Source: Winslowiella toletana
GTDB lineage: Bacteria; Pseudomonadota; Gammaproteobacteria; Enterobacterales; Enterobacteriaceae
NCBI RefSeq assembly: GCF_017875465.1
Contig: NZ_JAGGMQ010000001.1
Coordinates: 4,588,001-4,652,000 of the forward strand
Direction: 5' to 3'
DNA length: 64,000 bases
How positions within the stretch are numbered: position 1 is the first letter of the stretch; every line of letters begins with the position of its first letter. The translations under genes were made by a program, and so were the position numbers. The notes beneath the pieces are model-generated. The model was not told the origin of the DNA, ran no database searches, and saw only the letters and a program-made list of their open reading frames with translations. Below are positions 5,106 to 63,285 of this stretch, one piece after another.

Positions 5106-5840
5106 TTACTGGAAACGCATCGCTTTATCGCGCGCCAGGCGCTCAAGGGCGAAGATCACCTGCTGCAACTGACGCTCCTGCACCGCAGTCAGCGCCACAA
5201 AGCGAAAACTCAGACGCGGCGTGCTCACCGTTTCATTTTTACTGCTGACGGTGGTGCGCTCACCGATATGTATCAGCTGAGCATCAACGGTAAACTGACC
5301 ATACTCCCCCAGCTCCACATAAAGATTGCGCAGAATATCGCCGCTGCTGAGTTTCTCCGGCAGGGCGCCAACCACCAGCACGCCGATACCACCAAGGGAA
5401 AGATCCTGCAGACGAAAACGCGCTTTGCTGCCGTCGGGCCACTGGGTTTCACAGAAGAACACCGGTTCCAGCGGCGCATTAACGCGGAAAAACTCCCGGC
5501 GTTGCAGCATCCACAGCTCATCGGGCAGCGGGGCGGCAAAGGCCGGTAAACCTTCATGTTCAGTCGCACTGAGTGAGGGCAGAGAGAACTCAACTTTTGC
5601 CCCACGGGTTTCGGCTGAAATCTGCAGATCTTCTGACTGCAACGCCAGCTGATTGTCATACTGACTACTGCCGTAATCGACCACCACCTGCTCTTTATCG
5701 ACAAACAGCAGGCGGCTGATAAATTGTCCGCGCGAACTGGCAACCCTTACCGGGGTCTGGTGTTTTTCAAGATCGCGCAGCACGCCGAGAACCGCCAGCG
5801 TGCCACGCTTAAGATACTGCTCTTTATCTTCCTGTTTCAC
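5106..5840 (-). CDS. ycgR: Flagellar brake protein YcgR (c-di-GMP effector)
   Basis: This 244-residue protein has the YcgR architecture: an N-terminal YcgR domain (~10-105) and a C-terminal PilZ domain. The c-di-GMP-binding residues are present: RREFFRVN at 114-121 and DLSLGGIG at 146-153. In E. coli and Salmonella, YcgR loaded with c-di-GMP binds the flagellar motor and slows swimming. It stands alone here, not beside flagellar genes, as in E. coli. Identification by motif and length is firm; direct action on the motor is taken from the family. Confidence 0.93.
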   Translation of the reverse strand: MKQEDKEQYLKRGTLAVLGVLRDLEKHQTPVRVASSRGQFISRLLFVDKEQVVVDYGSSQYDNQLALQSEDLQISAETRGAKVEFSLPSLSATEHEGLPAFAAPLPDELWMLQRREFFRVNAPLEPVFFCETQWPDGSKARFRLQDLSLGGIGVLVVGALPEKLSSGDILRNLYVELGEYGQFTVDAQLIHIGERTTVSSKNETVSTPRLSFRFVALTAVQERQLQQVIFALERLARDKAMRFQ

Positions 5841-56714: not shown

Positions 56715-57929
56715 ATGGATAACGCACACCAGCGTATCAACACCTTCACTGTGAAATCGAGCGGGTTTACTTTTGTTCTTATTCTTAGCGCATTAATGGC
56801 TTTTACGTCGTTATCCACCGATATTTACCTGCCCGCCATGCCAGTGATGGCAAAAGAGCTGCAGGGTGATGCCGAACTTACCATCACCGGATTTTTAATC
56901 GGCTTTTGTCTCGCGCAGTTGATATGGGGGCCAGTCAGCGACCATTTTGGCCGTAAAACGCCACTGTTTATTGGTCTGGTGTTATTTATGGTCGGCTCAG
57001 CAGGCTGTGCGCTGTCAACGGATATCATGCAAATTGTTTTCTGGCGCGTTTTCCAGGCGCTGGGCGCCTGTACCGGCCCGATGCTGGCTCGCGCGATGAT
57101 TCGCGATCTGTTTGGCCGCACCCGGGCCGCGCAAATGCTCTCAACCCTGATGGTGATTATGGCTATCGCGCCGATTGCCGGGCCGCTGCTGGGTGGCCAG
57201 ATGATCAGGGTGACCTCGTGGCACAGCATATTCTGGTTGCTGGCGGGAATCGGCGCTTTAATGCTGGTTTTGGTGTGCTGGCTGCCGGAAACCTTAGCAG
57301 CAGAGAAAAGGGTTAAAGCCTCTCTGGCTGGCGCATTCAGCAACTATTACCACTTGCTGAAAACTAGCCAGTTTATGCGCTTTACGCTCTGTGTGACCTT
57401 CTACTACGTCGCCGCCTATGCGTTTATTACCGGTTCGCCTTTTGTTTATATCTCTTACTTCGGCATCGATCCGCAGCACTATGGCTGGCTGTTTGCGGTC
57501 AATGTGATGGGCTTAATGGCCGTGAGTATGGTGAACCGACGTCTGGTTCATCGCTATCCGCTGGAGTCACTGCTTAAATTTGCGGCGGTGATTGCCGCTG
57601 CTGCCGCCATCACGCTGGCAATCAGCATAAAACTGGCTTTCGGCGGGATAGTGATGATTATTATCCCGGTGTTTATTTTCTTTGCCATGAATGGAATTAT
57701 CGCCGCCACTTCAACGGCGGCGGCGATGGATGCTGTGCCAGATATGGCTGGCTCCGCATCCGCATTAATTGGATCTCTTCAGTACGGCAGCGGCATTATC
57801 TCTTCTTTGCTGCTGGCGTTATTAAGTGACGGCACTCCCTGGACCATGAGCTGGATAATCGCGCTATTTACCCTGGCGAGTGCCGTAATGGCGTTAACGG
57901 CACCTGGGACGGTTAAACCCGTTAGCTAA
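56715..57929 (+). CDS. Bcr/CflA-family MFS drug exporter
   Basis: This 404-residue, twelve-segment transporter has Bcr/CflA signatures: TSLSTDIYLPAMPVMAKELQG in TM1, LIWGPVSDHFGRKTPL (motif A), RVFQALGACTGPMLARAMIRDLFG and LMVIMAIAPIAGPLLGGQM (motif C). The family includes bicyclomycin and chloramphenicol exporters. No linked regulator. It ends convergently with the exported hydrolase gene, with a four-base overlap of stops. Confidence 0.87.
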   Translation: MDNAHQRINTFTVKSSGFTFVLILSALMAFTSLSTDIYLPAMPVMAKELQGDAELTITGFLIGFCLAQLIWGPVSDHFGRKTPLFIGLVLFMVGSAGCALSTDIMQIVFWRVFQALGACTGPMLARAMIRDLFGRTRAAQMLSTLMVIMAIAPIAGPLLGGQMIRVTSWHSIFWLLAGIGALMLVLVCWLPETLAAEKRVKASLAGAFSNYYHLLKTSQFMRFTLCVTFYYVAAYAFITGSPFVYISYFGIDPQHYGWLFAVNVMGLMAVSMVNRRLVHRYPLESLLKFAAVIAAAAAITLAISIKLAFGGIVMIIIPVFIFFAMNGIIAATSTAAAMDAVPDMAGSASALIGSLQYGSGIISSLLLALLSDGTPWTMSWIIALFTLASAVMALTAPGTVKPVS

Positions 57930-58978
57930 ATATTGTTATCGAAGAAGGGATCCAGCTGGCTCATCGCCTGATCGACATAACGAGGCACCCAGTAGGTCTC
58001 AATATGGGTCGCGCCTTCGATAAGATACAGCTTTTTGTTACTGGTGCCGGTGGCCTGCTTAAACGCACTTTCGGTCATATAGAGTGAGTCGGCCTTGCTG
58101 CCTGCCATCATCAGCAGCGGCTGATTGATCAACGCCATATTGCTTTGGGCGTCAAAACGCATCAGGTCGAGCAGGCTGCTGGTGGTATAGCGGAAAGTAG
58201 AATTCGGATGGGCATGGGTTTTGCCGTAATACTCATAGCCCTGACGATAGAGATCAAAAGGCAGTCTGGCGATTTGCTCATCTGTCAGATTCGCATCGCC
58301 TGAGTAAGTGATTTCACCGGTCGTGGCCTCTTTGATTCGCGCGTCTGTGGCCACTTTCAGGCGATCCTGAATCGTTGCCAGCTGGGAATCCTGATAGCCG
58401 TTGCGGCGCACGCGGCCGGAGTCAAACATGCTCAGGGTGGCTAACGCCTTAAACCGCTTGTCTGTCTGGGCGGCTTTGAGTGAATAACCGCCGCCGCCAC
58501 AGATACCGAGCAGGCCAATACGTCCGGCATCAACGCCCGGATACTGACTGATATAGTCGGCCATGCCGTGAATATCCTCAATGCGGTTAGCTGGTTTGTC
58601 CACGCTGCGCGGCATGCCGCCGCTGGCGCCCTGATAAGCCGCATCGGCGGTGATAGTGATATAGCCATGTTCTGCCAGTCGCTGTGCATACAATCCGGCA
58701 ACCTGTTCTTTAACACCGCCGTTTGGATGCGCCACCACCACCGCAGGGTATTTTTTCGCCGGATCATAACTGGCAGGCGTATAGATATTGGCCGCGATTT
58801 GAATGCCGTGCAGATCATATTTCACCGGATGAATATTGACCTTGCCCTGAACATTTTCGCGAATCGCCCCGTCATACACCAGGGTAAAGGGGTTCTGCTT
58901 GTAATCCGCGGCCTGAGCGGTTGAAGCCAGTCCGGCCATTGCTGTCAGCAGTAGTGCATTTAAAACGTTGAGTTTCAT
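57926..58978 (-). CDS. Exported alpha/beta hydrolase (dienelactone hydrolase-like)
   Basis: This 350-residue protein has a signal peptide of about 23 residues (LLLTAMAGLASTAQAAD). It has an alpha/beta hydrolase fold: VVVAHPNGGVKEQ (oxyanion region), nucleophile elbow GLLGICGGGGYSLKAA with Cys in place of Ser, the acid in MMAGSKADSLY and the base in EGATHIETYW. A Cys nucleophile is the dienelactone hydrolase trait, and here it is periplasmic. It is divergent from a two-component system, with a three-half-site operator in between, so it should belong to the same regulon. Confidence 0.85.
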   Translation of the reverse strand: MKLNVLNALLLTAMAGLASTAQAADYKQNPFTLVYDGAIRENVQGKVNIHPVKYDLHGIQIAANIYTPASYDPAKKYPAVVVAHPNGGVKEQVAGLYAQRLAEHGYITITADAAYQGASGGMPRSVDKPANRIEDIHGMADYISQYPGVDAGRIGLLGICGGGGYSLKAAQTDKRFKALATLSMFDSGRVRRNGYQDSQLATIQDRLKVATDARIKEATTGEITYSGDANLTDEQIARLPFDLYRQGYEYYGKTHAHPNSTFRYTTSSLLDLMRFDAQSNMALINQPLLMMAGSKADSLYMTESAFKQATGTSNKKLYLIEGATHIETYWVPRYVDQAMSQLDPFFDNNI

Positions 58979-59113
58979 GTTATCTCCAGGGGTAGCGTCG
59001 CGGCGCGACAGTGATAGTGCCCGCTTAGCTTAGGGAGAGAGGTCTGTCAGCATCATGACCAGAGCGTAACAATTTTGTCAGTTATCGCTGTCGCCAGCAG
59101 CAGCAGGGGTTTT

Positions 59114-59144
59114 CTGACAATTTTGTCAGCAAATTGTCAGCCTG
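59114..59144. promoter_or_regulatory. Three-half-site operator, copy 1 (response regulator target)
   Basis: CTGACAA, 2 bp, TTGTCAG, 4 bp, TTGTCAG, then CCTG: an inverted pair plus a direct third half-site. The inverted part has the arrangement of OmpR-family metal-sensing regulator boxes. It lies between the divergent exported hydrolase and the response regulator. A further TTTTGTCAG half-site lies at ~59073-59082. Confidence 0.7.
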
Positions 59145-59238
59145 CTGTTGGCAAACAGAGCAGAAAGTGAGGTAGCGCAACAGGCTGTTCAGCGCCTGGC
59201 GCGCTAAAAATCTCGTTACAGATAAGGAAGTACGCGCT

Positions 59239-59928
59239 ATGCGCTTATTGTTAGTTGAGGATGAAGAGAAAACCTCATCCTATGTCAGCCGCGCGCTGGC
59301 AGAGTCCGGCTTTACCGTTGACGTCTCCGCCGACGGTGCGGAAGGTCTGCACTATGCGCTGGAGTTCGATTATGACGCGGTAATCCTGGATGTCATGCTG
59401 CCGGGTATCGACGGCTACCGTGTGCTGGAAGGGATTCGCGGCAGTAAACAGACGCCAGTACTGATGCTGTCTGCTCGCGGATCGGTCGATGAACGGGTTA
59501 AAGGGTTGCGACTCGGCGCGGATGACTATCTGCCGAAACCCTTTTCACTGATTGAGCTGGTCGCGCGCATCCAGGCGCTGGTTCGTCGTCGTGCGACAGA
59601 TGGGGTGGATATTACACAACTGCAAATCCACGATCTGCATCTGGATCTTCTGGCGCGCCGGGTATTTCGCGCTGGCAACCGGCTGGAGCTCACCGCCAAA
59701 GAGTTTGCGCTGGTCAGCCTGCTTGCCCGTCACCAGGGAGAAATCCTGTCGAAGATGATGATTGCAGAACAGGTCTGGGATATGAATTTCGACAGCGACG
59801 CCAATGTTGTCGAAGTGGCGATTAAGCGCCTGCGCGCCAAAATTGATGCTCCCTTTGATGTCAGATTACTGCACACCGTGCGCGGGATGGGATACGTACT
59901 GGAAGTCAGGTCGCATTCGCAGCCATAA
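59239..59928 (+). CDS. OmpR-family response regulator (heavy-metal type)
   Basis: This 229-residue regulator has a receiver domain (~1-115) with the phospho-acceptor Asp51 in VILDVMLPG, acidic residues VEDEE, and Lys in LPKPF. The winged helix of the OmpR type is at ~125-222 ([22 protein letters not shown] and [13 protein letters not shown]). It resembles CusR/CopR/PcoR, which respond to metals, but some relatives respond to redox or aromatic compounds. The histidine kinase gene follows 14 bp downstream. Operators of inverted CTGACA/TGTCAG occur before this gene and before the cupin gene. Confidence 0.92.
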
Positions 59929-59941
59929 ACGGAGACTGATT

Positions 59942-61405
59942 ATGTTTAAGCGCTCCATTTCCGGGCGTCTTGCTTTGCTGTTTGTTCTGAGCATTGTGCT
60001 GATTGTCCTGACGCTGGGTCTGCTGTTACGCAGTTCATTACACAACTCATTGCAAAAGCAGATGCATAACGAGCTGCTGTTTCGTGAGTCACTGATGAGC
60101 CCATGGATAACCGCGCGGACCTCAGCTGAGGGATGGTCAGTTCTGGCGAATAAGTTTACCGATTTGGCCAGTTCCGAAGGCGAGCGGGTGCGTTACTGGA
60201 TATTGAGTGACGACGCCCGTTTCAATATCGGCGGCGCGCCGCCGATGGAGGTGAACTGGGCCTCGCTTCACGAGGGATTAAATAAAGTACCTGGCGCGTC
60301 TGACGGCTCCTGCTCGCTGTTCCTGCTGGTAAAAACCATTCCGGCCAGAGGAGAACGGCCAGCGCTGCGCTATGTGGTGGCCATCGATTCAACACCCTAT
60401 ATGGGAACGCTTGATGCTTTTACGCGCGCGCTGCTGGTTATCTCCGCCTTTGGCGTATTTATTGTCGCATTACTTGGCTATGGCGTCTCACGTTTTGGTC
60501 TGCGTCCGCTGGGGGCATTAAGCCAGCAGGCCCATCATCTGGCTCCCGGCGATCACGCCCGGCGACTGGAAACCAGTGCGTTGCCGGAGGAACTCAGGCA
60601 GCTGGCTTCCTCATTTAACGGCGTACTGGAACGGCAGGAAATCGCCTGGCGACAGCTGGAGAGTTTTAATGCTGATGTCGCCCATGAGCTGCGCACACCG
60701 CTGACCAATCTGATTGGTCAGACGCAGCTGGGATTATCCCGCCGCCGTGCGCCGGAGGAGCTTGAAGAGTTACTGGGTTCCAATCTGGAAGAGCTGGAGC
60801 GGATGACCTCCATCGTAAACGATATGCTGTTCCTGTCGCACGCGCATGCGGGCGAGCATGCGTCACAACTTACGCAGGTTTCTTTACGCGAAGAAACCCT
60901 GAAAACCGCTGAATACGTTGAGCCTTCTTTTGCTGAAAAGCAGCTTTTATTAGCGGTTGAGGGTGATGCGCTGGCCCATATTGACCGGCGGTTATTCCAT
61001 CGTTCGCTGGCCAATCTGCTGGAAAACAGTGCACGCCACTCTGCGCCGCAGAGTACGGTGACCGTCAGTTTAAGCGCAACCCATAGCCATGCCACGGTAG
61101 CGGTATCAAACCCCGGCGCCCCGGTTGCGCCTGAGCATTTACACCGTCTGTTTGAGCGCTTTTACCGCGTCGACTCTTCGCGCGCCAGAAGCGATACCCA
61201 TCACGGTCTCGGGTTATCGATTGTTCGCGCGGTGGCGATCATGCATCGGGGAAATGTCTTCGCGCGTAGTGAGCGAGGCATCAATACCTTTGGCCTGAGC
61301 TTTGCTCTCTCTTCCGCCAGCGAGCAGCAACACCCGACAGCAGAGCAGTCGCAACCTCTGTTTCAGGCACTTACTGACAGGATTGTCAGCAAACCGTCAG
61401 CCTGA
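59942..61405 (+). CDS. Sensor histidine kinase (heavy-metal sensor type)
   Basis: This 487-residue sensor starts at ATG 59942, 14 bp after the response regulator; the earlier frame from 59804 is not coding. There is a membrane segment at ~8-30, a periplasmic domain (~31-158), a second segment at ~160-182 ([17 protein letters not shown]), HAMP, the H-box with [17 protein letters not shown]-box [11 protein letters not shown] and G-box [13 protein letters not shown]. It resembles CusS/CopS-type sensors. The periplasmic domain shows no metal-binding His/Cys cluster by eye, so the signal may not be a metal. The 3' end contains the second operator. Confidence 0.9.
61374..61404. promoter_or_regulatory. 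Three-half-site operator, copy 2
   Basis: CTGACAG, 2 bp, TTGTCAG, 4 bp, CCGTCAG, then CCTG, matching copy 1 at 26 of 31 positions with identical spacing. It overlaps the end of the histidine kinase gene and lies 58 bp before the cupin gene. Confidence 0.7.
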
Positions 61406-61461
61406 CGACATCGACCGGTGGTTACAATCATTGCCACGTTTTAACCACATGGACGCAATGT

Positions 61462-61941
61462 ATGACGGGAAAACCACGCTGTCTGGGGCTGTTGCTGGCG
61501 GTTATCACTTTCTCATCTGTCGCGCAGCCGCAACACGCTTCAGGGCATATCGCAGTCGCCGGCAGTCAGAAACCGGTTGCCGGTCCGGCTGAGAACTTTA
61601 CCGGCCGCGTGCGGGTCGATCCGCTGTTTGTGGCGGATAACGCGATTGCGGCTTCGGCAGCCTATGTCACCTTTGAGCCGGGGGCGCGCTCAGCCTGGCA
61701 CACACATCCTGCAGGTCAGCGACTTATCGTCACCTCCGGCGTCGGTTTAACCCAGCAGGAAGGGCAGTCGGTGCAGATTATCCGCCCCGGAGATGTGGTC
61801 ACTTGTCCGCCGGGCGTTAAACACTGGCATGGCGCCGCCCCCGACAGTGCAATGACGCATCTTGCCGTGACCGGTCTGGTGGCAGGCAACAGCGTAAAAT
61901 GGATGGAGAAAGTGTCAGATGAACAATATCACGCGCATTAA
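61462..61941 (+). CDS. Exported cupin-domain protein
   Basis: This 159-residue protein has an N-terminal signal peptide (~1-22; [17 protein letters not shown]) and a single cupin barrel with metal ligands WHTHPAGQ and GVKHWHGA, like the small cupins that accompany carboxymuconolactone-decarboxylase proteins. It could be an oxidoreductase, lyase or small-molecule binder. It is preceded by the second operator of the two-component system and overlaps the next gene by 23 bp, which argues for co-translation. No strong ribosome site was seen. Confidence 0.82.
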
Positions 61942-62695
61942 GCAGCTTACCCCGGCGATTTTATTGATTTGTAGCTGTAGCCTGGCGTCGCAGGCGGCAA
62001 CCAGTGACGCGGCGACCGCATCGATAAATCAGTCGCAAGCGGCTGGCGAGACGCTAACGGCACGCCAGCAGGCCATCCCGTTGATGGCGGCATTTATGGC
62101 AAGCAGCCAGATGGAAAAACTGGATAAAGCACTTAATCAGGGTCTGGATGCCGGATTAACCGTCAACGAGGCCAAAGAAATTCTGGTACAGCTTTACGCC
62201 TATACCGGCTTTCCGCGCAGCCTGAATGCGCTGAATGTCTTAATGCAGGTTACGCAGGCGCGTAAGCAACGCGGCATCCATGATATTCAGGGCAAAGAGC
62301 CAGTAAAACCTGTTCCGGCTGGCGATGAACTTCGCCGTACAGGTACGGAGAACCAGACCAGAATCTCTGGCGCACCAGTGCAGGGGCCGCTTTTCGAGTT
62401 TGTTCCGGTGATCAATCAGTTTCTGCAAACCCATCTGTTTGGCGATATTTTTGCCCGCGACAATCTTGACTGGCAAAGCCGTGAACTGGCAACGGTCGGC
62501 GCATTAGCCGCCACGCCGGGTGTGGAAGCACAGCTACTGTCCCACACCCGCGCCAGTCTGCGCGTGGGACTCAGCCGCGGGCAACTGCAACAGCTGGTGA
62601 AAATTTTGCGTGATAACGGTGAACCACAGGCCGCGGCACGCGCTGAACAGGCACTGCTTAGCGCGCAGGCCAGCGCCGATAAGGAGAGTAAATGA
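61919..62695 (+). CDS. Exported carboxymuconolactone decarboxylase-like protein (two CMD domains)
   Basis: This 258-residue protein has a signal peptide ([18 protein letters not shown]) and two CMD repeats (~45-115 and ~175-245). The first includes [29 protein letters not shown], the second [36 protein letters not shown]. The CxxC redox pair of AhpD-type members is absent, so it is not a simple peroxidase partner. It is exported, as are its cupin and hydrolase neighbours. The start overlaps the cupin gene. Confidence 0.83.
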
Positions 62696-63285
62696 TGGCG
62701 GACTCGCATGATTCCCACCGCCGAATGCTGCTTAGCGCGCTGGCGGGCATAACGCTGTCGAAGGTTATTCTGCCGCCTGCCGCGGCCAGTACGCTGAACA
62801 CCGCAGATAACCGCGGCACCCTGGTGGTGTTTTTTTCCAGAAGCGGCAATACGCGGGTGATCGCCGGGGTGATCCATCGCAGCCTTCATACCGATCTGTT
62901 CGAAATTGAACCCGCGACGCCGTATCCGCAAGACTATTTCCGGACGGTAGAACTGGCGAAAAATCAGCGCGATGGTGGCGTAAAACCTGCGTTAAAAAAT
63001 AAGGTCGCCAGTATCGAACAATACCAGACGATCTATTTAGGCTTTCCGATCTGGGGCACCACTGTGCCACCGGTGGTCCAGACCTTTCTGAGTAACTGTA
63101 ACCTCACCGGTAAGCTGCTGATTCCTTTTATTACCCATGGCGGATATGGCATCGGTGACAGCGAGGTGATTTTAAGCCGTCTGGCGCCAGCCGCCAGGCG
63201 CGAGAAACCACTGGTTATTGAGTGCTATCAGGAAAGAAAAACCACGGAAGCTGTAACCAGCTGGCTGGAAGCGATTCGTAGCTAA
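62692..63285 (+). CDS. Exported flavodoxin-like protein with possible Tat signal
   Basis: This 197-residue protein opens with a possible Tat signal (SHRRMLLSALAGITL, two Arg then hydrophobic) followed by a flavodoxin domain (~42-195): the FMN phosphate loop FFSRSGNTR, IYLGFPIWGTTVPP (aromatic stacking on flavin) and FITHGGYGIGDSE. A folded FMN protein would need Tat export, which fits. It overlaps the CMD gene by four bases (AAGGAGAG upstream; ATG 62692 or 62695). It may supply electrons to its exported partners. Confidence 0.83.
   Translation: MMADSHDSHRRMLLSALAGITLSKVILPPAAASTLNTADNRGTLVVFFSRSGNTRVIAGVIHRSLHTDLFEIEPATPYPQDYFRTVELAKNQRDGGVKPALKNKVASIEQYQTIYLGFPIWGTTVPPVVQTFLSNCNLTGKLLIPFITHGGYGIGDSEVILSRLAPAARREKPLVIECYQERKTTEAVTSWLEAIRS

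Follow-up and report, generated by a model that had tools for sequence, protein, structure and literature searches.

What does an operator-like pattern control when it stands at both ends of a two-component gene pair, and which regulator reads it? This question is raised by a locus in a 64,000-nucleotide stretch of the Winslowiella toletana genome (assembly GCF_017875465.1, contig NZ_JAGGMQ010000001.1, positions 4,588,001 to 4,652,000; hereafter the window), in which the genes of an OmpR-family response regulator (59239..59928, + strand) and a sensor histidine kinase are flanked by a divergent gene for an exported hydrolase and, downstream, by cupin, decarboxylase and flavodoxin genes. A sequence-only reading had proposed that a 31-bp pattern, at 59114-59144 and again at 61374-61404 (+), marks the regulon of this two-component system. 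Both copies were present as described, with 26 of 31 bases equal and identical spacing, the first between the hydrolase and regulator genes and the second overlapping the end of the kinase gene, before the cupin gene. The proposal of a regulon is supported by the conservation of the operator at orthologous loci, binding by the regulator being predicted. We consider it very probable (about 85%) that the elements described below would serve as operators of this regulator at three promoters, with class-II-like activation, one of the three being autoregulatory.

Anatomy of the proposed operator arrays

The elements proved both longer and more numerous than had been proposed. The three half-sites of the pattern are real, and in each copy a weaker fourth half-site follows 11 bp further on; moreover, besides the two operators claimed, a diverged array on the minus strand (59044-59081) had been overlooked, which brings the count to three. 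All share one layout, namely an inverted half-site at positions 1-6 and direct half-sites at 11-16, 22-27 and 33-38 in 11-bp steps, followed, 11 nt after position 38, by a -10-like hexamer at positions 50-55; aligned with relatives, the half-sites read CTGACA (1-6), TGTCAG (11-16), NGTCAG (22-27) and TGTTGG, CGACAT or TGACAG (33-38). Array R (59114..59151, +; CTGACA attt TGTCAG caaat TGTCAG cctgc TGTTGG), whose fourth half-site is the TGTTGG at 59146-59151, faces the response regulator. Array C (61374..61411, +), with CGACAT at 61406-61411, faces the cupin gene and overlaps the last codons and the stop of the kinase gene, and array H (59081 to 59044, -; CTGACA aaat TGTTAC gctct GGTCAT gatgc TGACAG) faces the exported hydrolase. 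From array start to start codon there are 103 bases for the hydrolase, 125 for the regulator and 88 for the cupin gene, and the -10-like hexamers are TAAGCT for promoter H (59027..59032, -), GAAAGT for promoter R (59163..59168, +) and TACAAT for promoter C (61423..61428, +). A sigma-70 consensus scan of 58900-61500 gave 0 matches on the + strand and 2 on the minus strand, with 1.7 expected in all; one of the two uses array H as its -35. A recent duplication of a larger segment was rejected as the origin of the two 31-bp copies, the alignment of which ends at the box edges, the flanks being unrelated.

Elsewhere in the window, every site departs from the 26 specified consensus bases at 8 or more positions, and under a score built from the three array classes, with the window's own arrays among its rows, only the three arrays reach 8 in the window (45.7, 37.2 and 36.5). 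Throughout the organism's own genome (5,299,050 bases, 2 contigs), CTGACA-N4-TGTCAG-N6-GTCAG has exactly two matches with 0 mismatches, the copies at 59114 and 61374, the next best having 2 mismatches, and TGACA-N3-TTGTCA is likewise matched without mismatch solely at these two copies. At up to 3 mismatches on both strands, the longer pattern yields 22 matches against 7 for a backwards control, so that weak matches by themselves carry little meaning. A four-half-site pattern, modelled on array H, which therefore matches it with 0 mismatches by construction, has four genome matches at up to 3 mismatches (backwards control, 1), three of them the window arrays (0, 2 and 2 mismatches) and the fourth with 3. 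These pattern searches turned up no distant target of the regulator in the genome; the nearest further candidate (C1:1213359-1213396), lying between genes named by eye as rpoE-like and nadB-like, departs from the three-half-site pattern at 2 positions and from the four-half-site one at 3.

Conservation in relatives

A kinase scan of a collection of 84,980 species returned 70 loci, one of which (L070, regulator at 34%) was left out of the class counts; the nearest relative, L001, titled Winslowiella arboricola, shows 90% kinase identity. When the orthologues of related species were inspected for the motif, the arrays were found conserved, and the claim of a shared operator was not refuted. Scored on 17 core bases (positions 1-6, 11-16 and 23-27), the best match for array R is complete (17/17) in 44 of the 68 relative loci and has 15 or more in 57 of them; array C keeps all 17 in 34, and at least 15 in 37, of the 45 loci with a cupin match. 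For array H, the best match reaches at least 14 of 17 in 41 of 46 loci, one of the 41 (L045) being the R palindrome read backwards, with the true H array of that locus at 5113. Control stretches from the relative loci, among whose few high scores there may be true arrays, reach at least 15 core bases in 4/1234 cases (+) and 4/1221 (-), and at least 14 in 11/1221 (-). Mean information amounts to 1.3-1.6 bits across the array against 0.2-0.3 immediately upstream, inflated at the core bases, which were used for row selection, and not at positions 33-38 and 50-55, which played no part in it.

The place of the -10-like hexamer is conserved as well. After collapsing duplicate 66-mers (for conservation) or 60-mers (for hexamer counts), keeping the window's own arrays among the rows and leaving out of class H the locus L045 and five rows scoring 13 (L007, L011, L013, L022 and L058), TANNNT stands at offset 50 in 39/39 kept H, 34/35 unique C and 31/55 unique R arrays, and at any other offset from 17 to 54 in at most 2 (H), 2 (C) and 15 (R). 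The looser NANNNT was uninformative, occurring at offset 50 in 54/55 R arrays but elsewhere in up to 36/39 H, 35/35 C and 40/55 R arrays. The array H of L022 looks true, with one change. That the 69 relative loci conserve where the arrays lie, how they are spaced and how far off the -10 stands supports the arrays as operators of this regulator.

Natural rearrangements around the arrays bear on the same point. In 23 loci over 1 kb separates the array and the regulator, and in 22 of these an aldo/keto reductase gene stands in between, sharing 78-91% identity with the reductase annotated in L108, a locus outside these counts that carries all three arrays. In 22/22 of the reductase-containing loci an array (at least 15/17) is found at the divergent promoter before the reductase, 1.2-1.4 kb from the regulator, which supports the operator reading; the 23rd locus, L019, has neither the reductase nor a good array. 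The R search in the reductase-containing loci covered the hydrolase side only, and a whole-locus scan of them, outside about L029-L035, found no second + array directly before the regulator. Where a flavodoxin gene (typed for L015 only) is inserted between kinase and cupin, as in L015, L020, L021, L033 and L047, there are two arrays, one per gene, and the second array before the cupin again supports operators. A single palindrome is shared by both directions in L009 and L044, with direct half-sites on each side. Furthermore, four Kosakonia/Enterobacter loci (L043, L046, L048 and L063) have no inverted half-site recognisable by eye, and their two direct half-sites, one of which is TTTCAG in L046, stand exactly 11 nt before a TAGAAT/TAACAT hexamer, an arrangement which supports the array reading; L064 departs, by eye, from this layout of direct half-sites only.

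The regulator and described boxes

With 293.1 bits against a cut-off of 279.2, the regulator falls within TIGR01387, the family of CztR/SilR/CopR/CzcR heavy-metal regulators, and is the sole protein of the genome to do so; this, together with 57% identity of its DNA-binding domain to that of CusR over 98 residues, supports it as the binder of the arrays. It misses the cut-offs of the CusR equivalog NF007346 (273.8 vs 420 bits) and of the HprR equivalog NF008567 (261.4 vs 353 bits), and is a member of the CopR/SilR/CzcR family, distinct from CusR and HprR. The inverted TGACA-N4-TGTCA near the regulator gene, typical of TIGR01387 loci, is present at 59114 and 61374 with 0 mismatches.

The kind of operator is already known from the papers cited here. 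The inverted pair had been called a classic OmpR-family box, which needs correction, since the classic box consists of tandem direct repeats and the inverted pair is of the CusR/PcoR/CopR type (PMC7380067); nor is the third, direct half-site unusual, as had been held, for AgrR has one and E. coli cusC and hiuH as well as plasmid silC/silE show the same offset. AgrR of Cupriavidus metallidurans recognizes a 6-4-6 inverted repeat with an in-phase direct half-site at some operators; mutation of the promoter-proximal direct half-site "largely affected" activation, and the proposal has been made that AgrR acts as a type II activator where the -35 is poor, with positive autoregulation (PMC7380067). 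The window arrays share with AgrR operators the 6-4-6 inverted repeat (imperfect in array H, with TGTTAC) and the in-phase direct half-site (at offset 22 in 3/3), and their promoters resemble those of AgrR in having a reasonably good Pribnow box and a poor or absent -35. The AgrR system differs in its half-site (ATTACA vs CTGACA), in the presence of the direct half-site at only some operators, in acting on silver/metal genes and in being active unphosphorylated. Within the available portions of PMC7380067, PMC11195947, PMC12428095, PMC8249747, PMC10100754, PMC3465305 and PMC9302797, a direct half-site is named for AgrR alone.

CusR binds TGACAAnnTTGTCA, described as a palindrome only (PMC11195947), and acts on copper/silver efflux, in which it differs from the window system; nevertheless, its box at E. 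coli cusC is like the window arrays in having TGACA-N4-TGTCA, a direct half-site at offset 22 (TGTCAC) and a hexamer at 50 (TAAAGT). The HprR box at E. coli hiuH-msrPQ, ATTACA-N4-TGTAAT, differs in its half-sites and agrees in layout (TGTAAG at 22, TATCCT at 50); the HprR system responds to oxidants and has a periplasmic repair target (PMC9302797). Plasmid silC (TGTCAC, TAAAGT) and silE (TGTCAT, TATAAT) fit the same two offsets, and the Pantoea hprR/uraH site fits loosely on its uraH side (TGACAG, TATAAC). Long CopR footprints contain several TGACA motifs (PMC12428095). A perfect ATTACA-N4-TGTAAT was also seen beside pcoA in L107 (3193-3206), with neither a clear direct half-site nor a -10 offset like that of silC/silE. 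The present analysis adds the locus itself, a third operator, a fourth half-site and the constant offset of the -10, and our literature search for this gene cluster found no paper on the combination.

Geometry in the wider family

A TIGR01387 search of 114 genomes of the window's class gave 29 new loci (L110-L138), 19 of them over the cut-off, and the family palindrome TKACA-N4-TGTMA (at most 1 mismatch, within 350 bp upstream of the regulator) is present in 10 of these 19 and in 0 of the 10 below. These ten loci, picked by the palindrome alone, provide 20 directions, the aligned sites having been viewed before the profile was computed; the offsets 22, 33 and 50 were taken from the earlier enterobacterial arrays, not from this set. 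Similarity to the own half-site is highest at offset 22, where it reaches 3.8 of 6 (mean of the other offsets 1.42, sd 0.42). TANNNT stands at offset 50 in 15/20 directions, and no other offset has it in more than 1/20. In a held-out set of 150 genomes across the phylum, with 28 new loci, all over the TIGR01387 cut-off, the palindrome is present in 7/28 and offset 22 is again the highest (2.71). The array rule for the wider family is accordingly strong in the ten-locus class set and weak, or partly repeated, in the held-out set. Together with the AgrR precedent and the geometry of cusC, hiuH, silC and silE, the ten class loci support the reading of the arrays as activator operators.

It is a tentative proposal, to which we give somewhat less than an even chance, that the present description of the CusR/HprR/SilR box is incomplete and that the family uses a polar array, in which an inverted pair is followed every 11 bp by a head-to-tail half-site, one or two in number, and the -10 is fixed at offset 50. 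The direct half-sites may then mark which side holds the strong promoter. If true, the polar array would combine palindromic binding as in CusR with tandem binding as in PhoB and tell which of two divergent promoters is activated, and its Pho-box-like part could explain the reported PhoB binding at cusR-cusC and yedW-yedX (hprR-hiuH; we take yedX to be hiuH). The layout rule (offsets 1, 11, 22 and 33, -10 at 50), which fits some CusR-, HprR- and SilR-linked promoters, could also sharpen site prediction.

Proposed mechanism and alternative explanations

From the observed sequence, spacing and conservation of the arrays and their position relative to the -10-like hexamers, we infer binding by this regulator, its stoichiometry and order of occupancy, activation over repression, the extent of the operons and a signal, as follows. 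The phosphorylated regulator would bind the palindrome as a symmetric pair, and further monomers or dimers would occupy the direct half-sites in head-to-tail order, the last of them coming to lie at the -35 region beside RNA polymerase and standing in for the poor -35, as in class-II-type activation. Array H would thus serve the hydrolase, array C the cupin, decarboxylase and flavodoxin genes, and array R the regulator-kinase operon, an autoregulation by which the system would become self-amplifying. Such a model assigns, by computation, a regulon and an operator to a two-component system of many enterobacterial genera.

One could object that the palindrome alone is the operator and that the direct half-sites are nothing but chance-like sequence of the -35 region, which positions 33-38 do overlap; the literature gives the boxes of CusR, PcoR and CopR as palindromes (PMC11195947, PMC12428095, PMC7380067), and the 2.0-bit conservation at bases 23-26 is inflated, as the row-selection score included these bases. 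However, offset 22 is the highest in the palindrome-chosen class loci and in the held-out set alike, the mutation of the AgrR direct half-site impaired activation, and four loci keep direct half-sites with no recognisable inverted one, so we regard this objection as unlikely to hold. We judge it similarly improbable that the regulator represses from the arrays instead of activating. It is true that the array covers the -35 region and that, when acetyl phosphate is absent, CusR is reported to repress cusCFBA (PMC8249747), but the arrays lie upstream of the -10, the sigma-70 scan found no good -35 on the + strand of 58900-61500, and AgrR activates from a comparable position (PMC7380067).

The direct repeats also recall a Pho box, on which PhoB would act: TGTCAG-N5-TGTCAG resembles the consensus CTGTCAT-AWAW-CTGTMAY in half-site and 11-bp step (by eye, there is agreement in spacing and in the TGTCA core, and disagreement in the spacer and the last base), and cusR and yedX are listed as PhoB targets by ChIP-chip, gel-shift and reporter assays, cusC by ChIP-chip and reporter (PMC3465305). 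Nevertheless, the Pho box lacks the upstream inverted half-site of the arrays and belongs to another regulator and other genes, the arrays accompany this regulator in its relatives as palindromes of like layout accompany other TIGR01387 regulators, and no phosphate gene is found among the typed neighbours; a role of PhoB here is hence very improbable, although some cross-binding by PhoB is conceivable. As to array C, hardly any credence can be given to the idea that it is conserved merely as coding sequence of the kinase C-terminus. Among the 49 loci that have an array at the kinase end, 38 do have the kinase stop at the same place of it, and class C conservation at positions 30-32 includes the stop codon. 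Counted over 69 loci, however, the stop lies inside the array in 42 (at three offsets, in 38, 3 and 1 loci) and before it in 7, the array being absent there in 20; the array occurs in all three reading frames relative to the kinase, and like arrays precede the regulator operon and the hydrolase gene, where the DNA is non-coding. The varied stop positions and frames reject coding constraint as the sole cause and support conservation as an operator.

Several observations weigh against the reading of the arrays as operators with a fixed geometry. The window's own hexamer at promoter R, GAAAGT, is weak, and the sigma-70 scan places another hydrolase promoter, with CTGACA at 59081 as its -35 and CATGAT at 59057-59052. 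The kinase end has no array in 20/69 relatives, and many relatives are close kin or horizontally shared, with near-identical loci spread over genera and one on a conjugative Pantoea plasmid, so that the counts are not independent and overstate the independence of the rows. Outside the close relatives, 9 of the 19 class-set regulators over the cut-off have no palindrome within 350 bp, similarity at offset 33 in the class set (2.5) barely exceeds the next values (2.45 at 48, 2.4 at 50), and the held-out set has the palindrome in just 7/28 loci and TANNNT at offset 50 in 2/14 directions. Additionally, the layout is not followed in the cusR and hprR directions of E. coli, at plasmid silR or at the pcoA palindrome.

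Genes at the locus and the possible signal

The hydrolase (57926..58978, -), the proposed target of array H, is an alpha/beta hydrolase with Peptidase_S15/DLH Pfam matches and, by eye, a signal stretch. The kinase (59942..61405, +) belongs to TIGR01386 (399.5 bits, cut-off 292.55). Following array C, the first gene (61462..61941, +) encodes a cupin whose score exceeds the (R)-mandelonitrile lyase cut-off (family NF049940), and next come a carboxymuconolactone decarboxylase family protein (61919..62695, +) with a signal-like N-terminal stretch and a flavodoxin (Flavodoxin_4; 62692..63285, +) with a Tat-like N-terminus, both read by eye; most neighbours of the regulator thus have signal-like or Tat-like N-termini. 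None of these neighbours (hydrolase, cupin, decarboxylase, flavodoxin) is a metal efflux or metal-binding gene as the TIGR01387 name would lead one to expect, although the profile requires neither metal-gene targets nor the palindrome. A system labelled "heavy metal" yet adjoining mostly exported-looking detoxification enzymes deserves attention.

The silver/copper ligands of CusS are H42, F43, S84, M133, M135, H145 and H176 (PMC10100754), and 0/7 are kept in the window kinase in one MAFFT alignment, whose loop region aligns poorly. Copper is therefore unsupported as the signal, and another periplasmic or electrophile/oxidant stress is probably sensed. The kinase has a cysteine, residue 124, in a C-x-(L/F)-(F/Y) context that recurs in 56 of the 64 loci with a readable kinase start; among the remaining 8, L022, L026 and L031 keep the cysteine in another context.

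Further candidate sites and side observations

At a threshold of 16, the three-class score found 47 further sites beyond the class hits in the 69 loci, part of which are R, C or H arrays missed by the class search (e.g., in L038, L039, L041, L042, L045 and L055). The genes following others of these sites encode an exported flavodoxin, an AraC-type regulator, a YdgH/BhsA-like protein, a carboxymuconolactone decarboxylase, an RND membrane-fusion protein, a second hydrolase, DoxX and DJ-1/PfpI. Ten hand-picked proteins were typed by Pfam, two of them being the Pantoea reductase and hydrolase; this set, chosen by hand and without a random-gene comparison, points to a detoxification regulon.

In Phytobacter and Kosakonia, arrays with this layout precede genes of two kinds, one encoding small AraC-type regulators, of which only that of L034 was typed, and the other YdgH/BhsA-like proteins, of which only that of L035 was typed, at about 7785-8070 in L034-L036 and about 4454-4790 in L043, L046, L048, L063 and L064. 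Minus-strand arrays at 5074-5128 in L049 and 5090-5144 in L061 face an RND membrane-fusion gene (typed for L049 only) beside the orthologous regulator. The conjugative Pantoea plasmid of L108 (NZ_OW970317.1, 1-12672) bears the whole regulator-kinase-detoxification cluster, along with additional aldo/keto reductase genes and one for a nitroreductase; an IS30 transposase gene is close by. As very similar loci are found in many genera, mobility of the cluster is possible. Finally, the record of L005, titled Chryseobacterium, has a locus of enterobacterial type with 73-92% protein identity, and perhaps represents a mislabelled or mixed assembly.

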